A DNA stretch of 64,000 nucleotides from Microbacterium sp. SD291. GTDB lineage: Bacteria; Actinomycetota; Actinomycetes; Actinomycetales; Microbacteriaceae. Below, piece after piece: positions 55,928 through 62,087 of the stretch; the stretch's first letter is position 1; every line of letters starts with the position of its first letter. The stretch is from assembly GCF_017355365.1 (NCBI RefSeq), contig NZ_JADIJR010000010.1:1-64000 (forward strand), written 5' to 3'. The notes under the pieces are model-generated. The model ran no database searches and was not told where the DNA came from. It worked only from the letters and a program-made list of their open reading frames with translations. The position numbers and the translations under genes are program-made.

Positions 55928-57502
55928 TCAGCGCGCGCGAAGGTCCTTGCGCAGGATCTTGCCGGACGCGGACTTCGGGATCGCCTCGATGAACTCGACC
56001 TGCCGCACCTTCTCGTGCGGTGCCACGTGCGCCGCGACATGGGTCATCACGGCATCCTCGTCGAGTTCCGCTCCCGGCTGCCGGACGACGTACGCCTTGG
56101 GCACCTCCTGGCCGTCCTCGTCGAGCACGCCGATCACGGCGGCATCCGCGATCGAGGGATGCTCCAGCAGCACGGCCTCGAGCACCGCCGGCGCCACCTG
56201 GTAGCCCTTGTACTTGATCAGCTCCTTCAGCCGGTCGACGATCCGGAAGATGCCGTCGTGCGTGACCGTCGCGATGTCGCCGGTGTGCAGCCAGCCGTCG
56301 GCGTCGAGCATCTCGGCGGTGGCGTCGGGCCGGTTGAGGTATCCGGTCATGACCTGCGGGCCGCGCACCCACAGCTCGCCCGGTGCGCTGACGCCGTCCG
56401 CCGGCTGCTCGATATCGGCCCCCGAATCCGGGTCGACCAGCCGCGCCTCGGTGTTGGGCACCAGAGGGCCGATGCTCGATCGGTCGATGTCGTCGCGGTC
56501 GGCGGAGATGAGGTTCACGGCGGGACTGGTCTCGGTCATGCCGTACCCCTGGGTCACGGTGCAGCCCAGCCGGGTCGCGACGGCCGACGCGAGGGCACCG
56601 TCCAGGGGCGCTGCACCGGAGAAGATCACCCTGACCGCCGAGAGGTCGTACTGATCGACGATCGGATGCTTCGCCAGCGCGACCGCGATCGGCGGAGCCA
56701 CGAACACCCAGGTCGTCCGGTGCTCTGCGATGATGCGCAGGAACTCGACCAGGTCGAACCGGGGCATCGTGACGAGGCCCGCACGCTGCTTCAGCGCGAA
56801 GTTGAGCAGCACGGTCATGCCGTAGATGTGGAAGAAGGGGAGGACGGCGAGCAGGCGGTCGGTCTCGTCGACGTCGAGCACCGGTCGGCACTGCGACACG
56901 TTCGCGACCAGGTTGCGGTGCGTCAGCATCACGCCCTTCGGCCGCCCGGTCGTGCCTGAGGAGTAGGGGAGCACCGCGAGGTGGGTCGCGGGGTCGAAGG
57001 ACACGTCGGGTGCGGTGCGTCCTTCTCCGAGGAGTGCCGGGAGCGACGGGTGGCCGTCGGCACCGTCGAGCACGATCACGTGATCGGCGTCGAACCCCAG
57101 GCTCTCTGCCGCGGACCAGGCGCCCGCGAGCAGCGGCGAGACGGTCACCAGCCAGGTCGCGCCGGCATCGGTCAGCTGATTCGCGATCTCCTCCGCGGTG
57201 TACAGGGAGTTGATCGTCGTGGCGGTCGCGCCCGCGCGCAGGATGCCGTGGAAGACCGTCGCGAACGCGGGCACGTTCGGGCAGAGCACCGCGACGGTGG
57301 TGCCGACACCGACGCCGCGGGCGGCCAGGGCGCCGGCGAACAGATCGATCTGCCCGATCAGCTGGCGGTAGGTGGTGGTGGCGCCGCTCATCCCGTCGAT
57401 GAGCGCGACACCGTCCAGCTGCGATTCGTCGAGGTCGCCGAAGAGGAACTCGTGGATGGTGACATCCGGGATGTCGACGTCGGGGTAGGGGCTGCGCACC
57501 AT
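55928..57502 (-). CDS. 4-coumarate-CoA ligase-like acyl-CoA synthetase
   Basis: 524 residues, AMP-forming adenylate synthetase. A3 motif LPYSSGTTGRPKGVMLTHRN, LPFFHIYGM, A5 QGYGMTETSPA, A7 GWLHTGDIA, A8 RIVDRLKELIKYKGYQVAPAVLEA and A10 PKSASGKILRKDLR with the catalytic Lys. The overall layout matches the 4-coumarate/fatty-acid CoA ligase group; the acid substrate is unknown. ATG 57502 has GGAGATC upstream. It does not end in a peroxisomal signal, as expected in bacteria. Confidence 0.94.
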   Translation of the reverse strand: MVRSPYPDVDIPDVTIHEFLFGDLDESQLDGVALIDGMSGATTTYRQLIGQIDLFAGALAARGVGVGTTVAVLCPNVPAFATVFHGILRAGATATTINSLYTAEEIANQLTDAGATWLVTVSPLLAGAWSAAESLGFDADHVIVLDGADGHPSLPALLGEGRTAPDVSFDPATHLAVLPYSSGTTGRPKGVMLTHRNLVANVSQCRPVLDVDETDRLLAVLPFFHIYGMTVLLNFALKQRAGLVTMPRFDLVEFLRIIAEHRTTWVFVAPPIAVALAKHPIVDQYDLSAVRVIFSGAAPLDGALASAVATRLGCTVTQGYGMTETSPAVNLISADRDDIDRSSIGPLVPNTEARLVDPDSGADIEQPADGVSAPGELWVRGPQVMTGYLNRPDATAEMLDADGWLHTGDIATVTHDGIFRIVDRLKELIKYKGYQVAPAVLEAVLLEHPSIADAAVIGVLDEDGQEVPKAYVVRQPGAELDEDAVMTHVAAHVAPHEKVRQVEFIEAIPKSASGKILRKDLRAR

Positions 57503-57587: not shown

Positions 57588-58811
57588 TCAGACCGGGTCG
57601 TTCGCGCGGTAGCGCGTGCTCGGCCGCCCCTTGGTCGAGTAATCGAGCGCGCGGATGGCCCGGCCGGAGCTGGCGAGGTGCTCGAGATAGCGGCGCGCGC
57701 TCACTCGCGAGATCTGCAGGTCATCGCCGATCTCGGTCGCGGACGCATCAGGGCGCGCGGCGAGGGCGGCGGCCACCCGGTCGAGCGTCTCGGCGCTCAG
57801 GCCCTTCGGCACGCCGAGGCGCTGACGGAAGGCGATGATCGCGTCGGCCGCCTCGACACGCCGGACGACGTCATGCAGCTCGGTGTGATCGCGCAGCAGC
57901 AGCGTGGTCGCCCCGACGTCGGCGCTGTCGATCTCGCCCCCGGTGCTGCGTGCGACGAGCACGTGCGAGCCGACGATGACCGGCCGGCCCGCGTCCTCGC
58001 CCTCCCTGAGCACGGTGTACAGCTCTTCTCCGAGCACATCGGCCGCCATGGCGCCGTCGAGGCCGGCCGCCTCCGTTCCGAGCAGCCGCGCGGCCGCGTC
58101 GTTCACGAGCGTGATCCTCCCGGAGCCGTCGACCGTGATCACGCCCTCGCTCAAACCGTGCAGGGTCGTCTCCTGGTTCTTCACCAGCGCGGCGATCTGA
58201 TGCGGTTCGAGGAGGTAGATGCGGCGGCGGATCACGGAGGTGACCCACGCCGACCCGAACACGCCGAGCACCGCAGCGGCGAGCATGGCGGCGATGAGCC
58301 AGGCGAGGTTCCGCATGAACTCGTCGTTCAGCTCGGACTCGAGGATGCCGACGGATGCCGTGCCGATCACCGTGCCGTCATCCGCGAAGATCGGCACCTT
58401 CACCCGCCACGATGTGCCGAGCGTCCCCGTCTGCGTGCCGATGTAGATCTCCCCGGAGAGCGGGATGGAGGGGTCGGTGGAGACCCTCTCGCCGATCCGG
58501 TAGGGGTTCGGATGGGAGTAGCGGATGCCGTCGGCGTCGGCCACCACGACGTAGGCCAGATCGGATGCCTCCCGGATGACCTCCGCGATCGGCTGGATCG
58601 TCGCCGAGGGATCCTCGTCGTCGAAGGCCTCGCGCACGGTCGGCAGGGACGCGATCGACTGCGCGACGGCCTGCATGCGGTCCTTGTACGACTCGCGAAG
58701 GGCCTGCTCCTGGAATGCGCCCGCCACGATTCCCGTCGCAAGGGTCACCAGGAACACGATCAGCGCCTGCAGCAGCAGCAGCTGTACGCGGAGCGTCATC
58801 TTCGAGGCCAC
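57588..58811 (-). CDS. chimeric membrane regulator: CitA-type sensor fused to CitB-type HTH
   Basis: 407 residues. TM1 (about 12-32), extracytoplasmic sensor domain of the CitA/DcuS type (35-165, with DADGIRYSHPNPYRIGERV and GTLGTSWRVKVPIF), TM2 (168-190), cytoplasmic PAS (205-310, TTLHGLSEGVITVDGSGRITLVNDAAARLLG). In CitA kinases the dimerisation helix with HEF-N and the ATPase would follow TELHDVV. Instead, residues 316-335 read like a CitB/DcuR response-regulator linker (RRVEAADAIIAFRQRLG). They run into its HTH: VPKGLSAETLDRVAAALA, SATEIGDDLQISRVSARRYLEHLASSGRAIR, GRPSTRYR. No kinase, no receiver. It diverges from tctCBA, the usual CitAB/TctDE target. GTG 58811 (VASKMTLRV) or ATG 58799 starts it. 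Confidence 0.85.
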   Translation of the reverse strand: MASKMTLRVQLLLLQALIVFLVTLATGIVAGAFQEQALRESYKDRMQAVAQSIASLPTVREAFDDEDPSATIQPIAEVIREASDLAYVVVADADGIRYSHPNPYRIGERVSTDPSIPLSGEIYIGTQTGTLGTSWRVKVPIFADDGTVIGTASVGILESELNDEFMRNLAWLIAAMLAAAVLGVFGSAWVTSVIRRRIYLLEPHQIAALVKNQETTLHGLSEGVITVDGSGRITLVNDAAARLLGTEAAGLDGAMAADVLGEELYTVLREGEDAGRPVIVGSHVLVARSTGGEIDSADVGATTLLLRDHTELHDVVRRVEAADAIIAFRQRLGVPKGLSAETLDRVAAALAARPDASATEIGDDLQISRVSARRYLEHLASSGRAIRALDYSTKGRPSTRYRANDPV

Positions 58812-58864
58812 CCGACCATTCTGGTCCCTGCAGGGACGGGCGGCGAGCGGCGTCGGCAGCTGTT

Positions 58865-58905
58865 CGCGACCAATAGTTTCAGAACCGCGACCAATGGTTT
58901 CCGAA
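58865..58905. promoter_or_regulatory. phased direct repeat upstream of tctC
   Basis: CGCGACCAATAGTTTCAGAA (58865-58884) and CGCGACCAATGGTTTCCGAA (58886-58905): 18 of 20 identical with a 21-bp period, about two helical turns, so both copies face the same side of the DNA. It lies between the divergent regulator and tctC, a likely operator for the CitB-type HTH. Confidence 0.65.
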
Positions 58906-58973
58906 GCTATCGCTGCGGCATCCGGCCCTCCAGGGTGGACGGACAGCAACCCGAACGCTCAAGGAGGAGCGCA

Positions 58974-59993
58974 ATGAAGCACACACGAATCGTCACGGCA
59001 GGCGCAGCATTCGCCGTGATCGCGCTGGCACTCACAGCATGCTCCGGCGGGAACGCACCCGCAGGCGGCAACGACGGCGGCGGCGACGCGGTCGCCGCCA
59101 TCGAGGATGTCAAGATCATCGTCCCGGCCGACCCCGGCGGCGGCTGGGACCAGACCGGACGCGCGATGTCGCAGGTGCTGACCGGCGACGAGATCGTCGG
59201 ATCCGCGCCGGTCTCGAACGTCGGCGGCGCCGGCGGCACCGTCGGACTCGCGCAGCTCGCGAACGAGAAGGACCCGGCGACCCTCATGGTGATGGGCCTG
59301 GTCATGGTGGGCGCGATCGAGACGAACGCATCGGCCGTGCGCCTCGAGGACACCACCCCGATCGCCCGCCTCACCGACGAGCCCCTCGTCGTCGTGGTTC
59401 CGGAGAGCTCGAAGTACGAGACGCTGGAAGATCTCGTCGAGGACATCGTCGACAAGGGGCAGGAGGTCACCGTGACCGGCGGATCCGCCGGCGGTGCCGA
59501 CCACATCCTCGCCGGGCTCCTGCTCGAGGCGGCAGGGCTCGAAGGCGCGGAGATCCCCGAGAAGCTGAACTACACGCCGAACTCGGGCGGCGGCGAGGCC
59601 GTCTCCCTGCTCGTCGGCAACAAGGTCGCGGCCGGCATCTCGGGCGTCGGCGAGTTCCTCCAGTACATCGAGGACGGCTCGATGCGGGCGCTTGCGGTCT
59701 CCGGCGCGGAGCCGGTCGAGTCGCTCCCCGACGTGCCCACGATCACCGACGCCGGATACGACGTCGTTCTCACCAACTGGCGCGGAGTGATCGCACCGGG
59801 TGGCATCTCCGACGAAGAGCGCGCGGAACTCGAGCGCATCGTCACGGAGCTGCACGACGCGGAAGCCTGGACGGACGAGCTCGAGACCAAGGGCTGGGCC
59901 GACGCGTTCCTGGTCGGCGACGAGTTCGACACCTTCCTGGAGGAGAACATCTCCGACGTCACCGGGACGCTCGAGAACATCGGGCTGATCTGA
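58974..59993 (+). CDS. tctC: tripartite tricarboxylate transporter, binding protein TctC
   Basis: 339 residues, lipoprotein (lipobox ALTAC, Cys23). TctC/Bug fold: [88 protein letters not shown]. It captures a tricarboxylate (citrate in characterised systems) for TctAB. First gene of tctCBA; AAGGAGG lies 6 nt before ATG 58974. Confidence 0.95.
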
Positions 59994-59994
59994 C

Positions 59995-60540
59995 ATGGAA
60001 GCCCCGATCCTCGGGGCGAGCGGGCGGGCCGAGGCTACTCGGCCCGCCCCGCGGGTTCCCATCGGTGAACTCGTCTTCGCCCTGCTCATGCTCGCCCTCG
60101 GCGTCTTCGCGCTCATCGGCGTCTTCACGATCCACGTCCCCAAGGGCGTGAAGGTCGGGCCGACCATCTTCCCGATCTTCGTCTCGGTGATCCTGCTGGC
60201 GTCCGCGGCCGCCGTGCTCGTCGACGTGCTCCGCGGCAAGCGCGCGGAGCTGGAGGATGCCGAGGACATCGACCCGCACGCCAGGACCGACTGGCTGACG
60301 CTCGCGAAGATCGTCGGAGCCGTGGTCGCCCACCTGCTGCTGATCGACGTGATCGGCTGGGCGCCGGCGGCGGCCGTGCTCTTCGGAGTCGTTGCATGGT
60401 CGCTCGGCGCCAAGCGCTGGTGGCTGGCGTTCGTCATCGGCCTGGCCGTCAGCCTGACGGTGCAGATCGTGTTCGGCGGGCTGATGGGGCTGTCACTGCC
60501 CTGGGGTCCGGCTCTCGGATGGCTCGGAGGGATGTTCTGA
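59995..60540 (+). CDS. tctB: tripartite tricarboxylate transporter small subunit TctB
   Basis: 181 residues, four TM helices, poorly conserved partner of TctA. A Pro/Arg N-terminus, then [58 protein letters not shown] and a second pair around [23 protein letters not shown] and [26 protein letters not shown]. 1 nt after tctC; its TGA overlaps the tctA ATG. Confidence 0.94.
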
Positions 60541-62087
60541 TGGACAGCTGGACCCTGCTTCTGGAAGGCTTCGCCACCGCGCTGCAGCCGCAGTACCTCA
60601 TATTCGCGTTCTTCGGCGTGCTGGTGGGCACCGCAGTGGGCGTGCTCCCGGGCATCGGCCCCGCCATGACGGTCGCACTGCTGCTGCCGCTCACCTACAC
60701 GCTCGACCCCACCGCCGCGCTCATCACGTTCGCCGGCATCTACTACGGCGGGATGTACGGCGGCTCGACCACCAGCATCCTGCTGAACACCCCAGGTGAA
60801 TCGGCATCCATCGTCACGGCCATCGAAGGCAACAGGATGGCGAAGCTGGGCCGCGGCGCTGCCGCGCTCGCGACCGCCGCGATCGGCTCGTTCGTCGCCG
60901 GCACCATCGCCACGGTCGGCCTCACGCTGCTCGCCCCCGTGCTCGCGCAGTTCGCGGTGAACCTCGGCCCTGCCGACTACGTCGCGCTCATCGTGATCGC
61001 ATTCATCACGGTCGGCGCGCTGATCGGCAGCTCGGTCCCTCGCGGCATGACGTCGCTCGGCGTCGGGCTGTTCCTCGGGCTCGTCGGCACCGACACCCTC
61101 ACGGCGCAGCAGCGCTACACGCTCGGACTGCTGCCCCTGTCTGACGGCATCGACATCGTGCTCGTCGCCGTCGGCCTCTTCGCCGTGGGCGAGACGCTGT
61201 ACATCGCCGCGCGGATGCGGCACGGAGCCATCGACGTGATCCCTGTGACGCGCGGCTGGCGCAGTTGGATGACGAAGGACGACTGGAAGCGCTCGTGGAA
61301 GCCGTGGCTGCGCGGCACCGCGATCGGCTTCCCGATCGGCACGATTCCCGCCGGCGGCGCGGACGTGGCGACATTCCTCTCGTACGCGACCGAGCGCAAG
61401 CTCTCCCGGCACAAGAGCGAGTTCGGCCGCGGAGCGATCGAGGGCGTCGCCGGTCCCGAGTCCGCGAACAACGCGGCTGCGGCCGGCGTGCTCGTCCCGC
61501 TGCTGACACTCGGGCTGCCCACGACCGCGACGGCGGCGATCATCCTCGTCGCGTTCCAGGCGTACGGCCTGCAGCCGGGGCCGCAGCTGTTCCAGAACCA
61601 GCCGGCTCTGGTGTGGGCGCTCGTCGCGAGCCTCTATCTCGGCAACGTCATCCTCATCATCCTGAACCTGCCGCTCGTCGGCATGTGGGTGAAGCTGCTG
61701 CAGATCCCGCGGCCGTACCTGTACGCGGGCATCCTGCTCTTTGCCGCCTTCGGCGCGTACGCGCTGAACTTCGCGGTCGTCGACATCCTGATCCTCGCGA
61801 TCATCGGCGTCCTCGGCTACTTCATGCGGCGATACGGATATCCGGTGGCACCGCTGGTGGTCGGCATGATCCTGGGGCCGATGGGGGAGGAGTACCTGCG
61901 CAAGGCGCTGCAGCTCAGCCAGGGCGACCTGTCGACGCTGGTCCTGCAGCCGTTCGCCGCGAGCGCCTACCTCGTGCTGGCGCTCCTCGTCGTCGGCGGG
62001 CTGTGGCTGCGCCGGCGCCAGCAGCGCTACGAGCAGGCGCTGACCGAGTCGATCGCGGTTCCCATCAAGGCGGATCAGGAGGTCTGA
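60540..62087 (+). CDS. tctA: tripartite tricarboxylate transporter large subunit TctA
   Basis: 515 residues, about 12 TM helices, the permease proper. The two family signatures are [24 protein letters not shown] with [20 protein letters not shown], and, in the second half, [26 protein letters not shown] with [32 protein letters not shown] overlap with tctB couples translation. The complete tctCBA set is present with no extra genes. Confidence 0.97.

Follow-up and report, generated by a model that had tools for sequence, protein, structure and literature searches.

The window, that is, the whole 64,000-nucleotide stretch of DNA analysed in this study, contains a 407-codon frame on the minus strand that diverges from the tctCBA operon. 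The encoded 407-residue protein has the domain order TM1, CitA-type sCache, TM2, PAS, helix, and CitB/DcuR-type HTH. The sequence-only reading of this DNA had described a CitA sensor and PAS part joined in frame to a CitB HTH, and the continuous frame was indeed present. The features of the locus are as follows.

57588..58811, minus strand: chimeric regulator gene, 407 codons, GTG start at 58811, stop at 57588-57590
58716..58784, minus strand: TM helix 1, about residues 10-32 (hydrophobic stretch; model helix 7-55)
58317..58709, minus strand: extracytoplasmic sCache_3_2 citrate-type sensor domain, residues 35-165 (Pfam, Foldseek)
58242..58310, minus strand: TM helix 2, about residues 168-190 (from the sequence; model helix 158-199)
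57894..58196, minus strand: cytoplasmic PAS domain, about residues 206-306 (Pfam PAS at 215-285; DcuS model match to residue 320)
57810..57893, minus strand: fusion helix or linker from PAS to HTH, residues 307-334 (dN/dS, column entropy, fixed length)
57843..57857, minus strand: putative junction of the CitA and CitB parts, residues 319-323 (unfused CitA and CitB of sister genomes; profile boundaries)
57606..57809, minus strand: CitB/DcuR-type DNA-binding HTH and wing, residues 335-402 (DcuR profile match; blast to sister CitB HTH)
58818..58823, minus strand: candidate regulator -10 element CAGAAT, 6 bp before the GTG
58868..58884, plus strand: putative operator repeat 1, GACCAATAGTTTCAGAA, a conserved repeat
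58889..58905, plus strand: putative operator repeat 2, GACCAATGGTTTCCGAA, 21 bp from repeat 1
58931..58936, plus strand: tctC -10-like element, which reads CAGGGT here and TAnnGT in several relatives and lies 25 bp past operator repeat 2
58974..59993, plus strand: tctC, tricarboxylate-binding protein, divergent from the regulator
59995..60540, plus strand: tctB
60540..62087, plus strand: tctA

The Pfam search matched sCache_3_2 at residues 35-165 (E 1e-33) and PAS at residues 215-285 (5e-7) of the chimera. The C-terminal Pfam matches were weak (HTH_11/HTH_64 at 350-401, below the curated cut-offs), but the DcuR/CitB identity of this end was clear in the profile and blast matches. NCBIfam split the protein cleanly: residues 4-320 matched positions 3-324 of 529 of the DcuS/MalK kinase model, and residues 326-403 matched positions 149-226 of 239 of the DcuR model. 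These boundaries place the junction at about residues 319-325, in agreement with the earlier estimate of residues 310-335. The omission of the kinase core and receiver had also been claimed, with a refuting test set beforehand, and the profile searches were negative, with no Pfam match to HisKA, HATPase_c, or Response_reg in the 407 residues at E values up to 10. A kinase core or receiver hidden in these residues was thus rejected, both being excluded by the Pfam and NCBIfam matches. Because the defining domains are missing, the chimera is no longer a CitA kinase nor a CitB response regulator; with TM segments and a DNA-binding domain but neither kinase nor receiver, it fits the class of one-component transmembrane transcription regulators.

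The AlphaFold2 model comprised helix 7-55, the sensor, helix 158-199, PAS, helix 312-331, and the HTH, and its confidence was good for the sensor and the HTH, whereas the pLDDT of the fusion helix was below 50. A Foldseek comparison with the PDB recovered the CitA/DcuS sensor domain, the chimera sensor resembling citrate-bound CitA 8bgb with 41% identity over 128 columns; the multi-domain matches had large rmsd and were uninformative on coupling.

Among the Microbacterium genomes sampled, 54 of 367 carried the chimera at full length, with 73-100% identity, including those of M. oxydans, M. maritypicum, M. hydrocarbonoxydans, and M. azadirachtae. The same junction was found in complete chromosomes, including NZ_CP078076.1, NZ_CP042412.1, and NZ_CP050453.1, and the GTG start was kept in most orthologues. 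The chimera diverged from tctC, followed by tctB and tctA, in all 22 of the chimera loci inspected. A TSUP-family transporter lay downstream nearly always, and rpoA-rplQ lay on the far side in most loci. An acyl-CoA ligase (AMP-binding) gene, at 55928-57502 on the minus strand of the window, directly followed the chimera in most chimera genomes, with some exceptions. In one single-contig genome (locus L065 of G339), frameshifts were present in rpoA, the acyl-CoA ligase gene, the chimera, and tctA, and these look like sequencing errors rather than decay. No further fusions were seen outside Microbacterium in samples of 396 genomes each of the order and the phylum, in which fusions to another HTH type would escape.

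No second close CitA match was present in any chimera-bearing genome of the 367 sampled from the genus. An orphan CitB or a second tct-linked CitA elsewhere in the SD291 genome was also considered and rejected, and only an ordinary CitA/CitB-family pair was found, on contig 23 (G000 locus L002, 1501-3359). The kinase of this pair has no evident PAS, its sensor and TM2 leading to the kinase core. Since the pair is divergent from a gene for a DctA-like dicarboxylate:cation symporter, it is probably a C4-dicarboxylate system.

Sister Microbacterium genomes carry separate, adjacent citA and citB genes at the same position opposite tctCBA, and the same two-gene arrangement was found in another genus of the family (G635). 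The N-terminal half of the sister CitA was about 56-62% identical to the CitA part of the chimera, and the sister CitB HTH was about 55-60% identical to its HTH part, with 55-57% in the blast matches. The chimera therefore stands where the CitAB pair for tctCBA would be, as the sequence-only reading had proposed. That reading had left two options, a deletion fusion if relatives had adjacent CitA and CitB genes matching the two halves and a conserved architecture if the full-length chimera recurred; the relatives have such genes, and the chimera recurs in 53 other Microbacterium genomes. In the regulator tree, the chimeras formed one clade (100/99) nested within the two-gene systems, which indicates one derived fusion event, and the TctA tree was concordant (SH-aLRT 92). 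A tree of the C-terminal half only was weakly supported (77 columns, 84/69) and was not relied upon. At the join, the CitA sequence RDHTELHEALRxMDGxQSLTEGLRAQAHEFAN aligned with RDHTELHDVVRRVEAADAIIAFRQRLGLPKGLS of the chimera and VDAVLRPVTRRPLPKGLS of CitB. The deleted span ran from just past the CitA PAS exit helix into the CitB receiver-HTH linker, with the join at about residues 319-323, and a single in-frame deletion, starting from the two-component state, explains the chimera.

We estimated selection as Nei-Gojobori medians over 22 chimeras. The dN/dS ratio was 0.23 for the whole protein, 0.256 for the sensor and TM part, 0.253 for PAS, and 0.145 for the HTH, and it was lowest, at 0.058, in the fusion helix (residues 307-338), where column entropy was also lowest. 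By these estimates, purifying selection on the chimera is strongest in the fusion helix. The spacing from RDHTEL to PKGLS was exactly 22 residues in all 51 of 51 chimeras, and Leu312, Val315, Val319, Ala322, and Ile326 of the helix appear to fit a heptad pattern. A segment that is both the most conserved and invariant in length suggests a rigid signalling element and is unlike a neutral scar. These findings support the view that a deletion fusion gave rise to the chimera, which selection has since maintained as a conserved architecture.

The locus is nevertheless dispensable, as many Microbacterium carry neither the chimera nor a citA-citB pair and as it has decayed in two genomes, G042 and G233. 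In both, the sensor half of the chimera is deleted together with the operator, tctC, tctB, and some of tctA, so that the PAS-HTH end remains; this joint loss of sensor and transporter fits a private partnership. The remnants lie at 5450-6119 of L047 (G042) and 5512-6637 of L066 (G233), the two deletions being similar and running from mid-chimera to tctA. Among the chimera loci, TctA/TctC similarity was discordant with the regulator tree (L034, L035, L040, L045, and L046 versus L036-L044); in one example, TctA was 96-97% identical in distant hosts versus 88% in nearer ones, hinting that the transporter genes may have recombined between species.

Between the regulator and tctC lies a putative tandem operator in which GACCAATAGTTTCnGAA occurs twice (consensus GACCAATRGTTTCnGAA). 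The two copies were the sole exact matches in the window, where 0.33 matches were expected at up to three mismatches, and also the sole exact matches in the genome. A wider regulon was rejected: at two or fewer mismatches, the operator had 1 further match in the genome versus 2 for a reversed control pattern, which points to chance. The pair was present in almost all chimera loci with a period of 20-21 bp. In the sister citA-citB loci, 11 of 11 had a good copy in the same place with a degenerate copy after it, and more distant CitAB loci, with a differing HTH wing, were without the motif. The distance from the last repeat to the TAnnGT-like tctC -10 element was 25 bp in most chimera loci; in most citA-citB pairs, the first repeat lay 44-45 bp from this element, the same geometry as in the chimera loci. 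The shared place and spacing in pairs and chimeras indicate that the operator came through the fusion unchanged, and its conservation supports the regulation of a promoter from the membrane. Lying upstream of the tctC -10-like element and abutting the -35 position, the putative operator would occupy an activator-like position, the -10 assignments of both tctC and the regulator being post hoc. In Corynebacterium glutamicum, CitB binds the tctCBA promoter and is an activator of the operon (PMC3353115).

On the regulator side, an alignment of 18 intergenic regions showed the CATT core of the candidate -10 element to be conserved. Chimeras and sister CitA genes alike carry a conserved A(G/C)AATG 5-6 bp ahead of the GTG (58817-58823, minus strand), its ATG being out of frame in the window. 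A leaderless transcript of the regulator is possible.

The residues of Klebsiella pneumoniae CitA that are important for citrate, R66, H69, L102, R107, K109, and S124 (PMC3353115), aligned with R97, H100, L131, R136, K138, and S153 of the chimera, and all six were invariant in 24 chimeras. CitA positions T58 and S101 differ in the chimera, and the same two positions differ in C. glutamicum CitA (PMC3353115). The K109 position is Lys in the chimera and Phe in E. coli DcuS, which makes citrate or another tricarboxylate likelier than fumarate as the ligand. On this alignment, we infer citrate or another tricarboxylate; a DcuS-like C4-dicarboxylate specificity, with Lys rather than Phe at this position, is less likely.

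On the whole, we consider it quite likely that the chimera is a membrane-tethered one-component citrate regulator that arose when an ancestral citA-citB operon opposite tctCBA underwent a single in-frame deletion, and it probably activates tctCBA. When CitA binds citrate, TM2 is pulled and the cytoplasmic PAS dimer changes its arrangement, its C-terminal exit towards the kinase shifting on the nanometre scale (PMC11754779). In the chimera, the extracytoplasmic sCache domain would bind citrate, and TM2 would shift and the cytoplasmic PAS dimer rearrange as in CitA (PMC11754779). The rigid helix that formerly led to the DHp would now enter the CitB HTH directly, and phosphotransfer is gone. Citrate would thereby set the geometry of the two tethered HTHs of a dimer and hence their grip on the tandem operator, and the HTH pair on the operator would recruit RNA polymerase to the tctC promoter. 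The tether would limit the search, and the only recognisable target adjoins the chimera gene itself. We favour, with rather less assurance, the fuller reading that a two-component system turned into a selectively kept, tethered one-component regulator in which a new rigid helix wires the CitA PAS dimer change into the CitB HTH at the inherited operator.

The sign of regulation could be the opposite, the chimera repressing tctCBA and itself without citrate and the ligand freeing the HTH from the operator. The operator does lie within the shared divergent promoter region, and DNA binding by a fused regulator that phosphorylation no longer controls could be constitutive. However, the position of the operator, which abuts the -35 position and keeps a constant distance on the upstream side of the tctC -10-like element, is an activator arrangement, its geometry is unchanged from the CitAB ancestors, and the characterised relative is an activator (PMC3353115); we therefore regard repression as unlikely. 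Regulated proteolysis, by which a soluble PAS-HTH or HTH fragment would be freed to bind the operator, is known for some membrane transcription factors (PMC7593790). The fusion helix, most constrained and length-invariant, suits rigid signal transmission better than a cleavable tether, and release by cleavage seems very unlikely here.

The chance is slimmer still that the chimera is a deletion relic, either a remnant without regulatory function or merely a constitutive DNA-bound anchor. Such a reading draws on the related deletions, which decay and leave only the PAS-HTH end in G042 and G233, and on the report that gonococcal Rsp is without effect on pilE (PMC6528607), but it is opposed by a frame that is open in 54 species-level genomes, purifying selection, invariant ligand residues, and a preserved operator. 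A sequencing or assembly error that joined two genes, for which nothing speaks but the single draft genome, is refuted by the same junction in 54 genomes, complete chromosomes included, and misassembly was rejected on this recurrence.

The chimera resembles the CitA-CitB and DcuS-DcuR systems (C. glutamicum CitAB, K. pneumoniae CitAB, and E. coli DcuSR) in its sCache, two TM helices, cytoplasmic PAS, and CitB-type HTH, and resembles the CitA-CitB systems also in its probable tctCBA target and citrate-binding residues. Unlike these systems, it is one polypeptide with no DHp, HATPase, or receiver, and it lacks a diffusible regulator such as E. coli DcuR, whose search of DNA proceeds by free diffusion (PMC9429925). 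ToxR, CadC, and TcpP share with it a membrane-tethered DNA-binding domain, extracytoplasmic input, and the absence of phosphotransfer, but their winged helix is N-terminal, they possess a single TM helix, and their sensor folds are unrelated, whereas the chimera has a C-terminal CitB-type HTH after two TM helices and PAS. It thus has neither the N-terminal OmpR/ToxR-type winged helix nor the single TM segment of the ToxR/CadC class. The hybrid two-component regulators of Bacteroides likewise combine a sensor and a DNA-binding domain in one membrane protein, but they retain the kinase and receiver that the chimera lacks.

A precedent is Rsp of Neisseria gonorrhoeae, a fusion of a PilS/Nps-like sensor and a PilR/Npa-like regulator (PMC10269533, PMC6528607). 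Like the chimera, Rsp has a sensor-kinase N-terminus fused to a response-regulator DNA-binding end and derives from an operon that is intact in relatives; unlike it, Rsp comes from different families, and no preserved multi-species operator is described in these two papers. Its function is disputed, being repression of pilA according to one paper and no role in pilE transcription according to another (PMC10269533, PMC6528607). In the open-licence papers searched, no description of a CitA-CitB chimera was found. Of the earlier suggestion of a functional new architecture, conservation and selection stood and novelty in kind did not, given Rsp and the transmembrane transcription regulators (PMC10269533). 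Membrane-tethered one-component regulators are already known, and the chimera adds a citrate-family case in which the evidence of selection is strong and the target is preserved.

CitA is among the best-understood transmembrane sensors, and the chimera is thus suited to testing whether direct control of an HTH by a PAS-dimer switch is possible, what phosphotransfer contributes, and how an HTH on a tether locates a single site. It is also a natural template for citrate biosensors. A single genus offers for comparison the state before the fusion (the citA-citB pairs) and the state after it, together with the junction, the operator, and the target operon. A 2023 survey considered a two-component origin of membrane-tethered one-component regulators possible and cited gonococcal Rsp (PMC10269533). 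The chimera is a preserved example of a simple membrane-tethered switch arising from a complex one and, if the present reading is true, it would provide a natural test case for the idea that some transmembrane transcription regulators derive from two-component systems.
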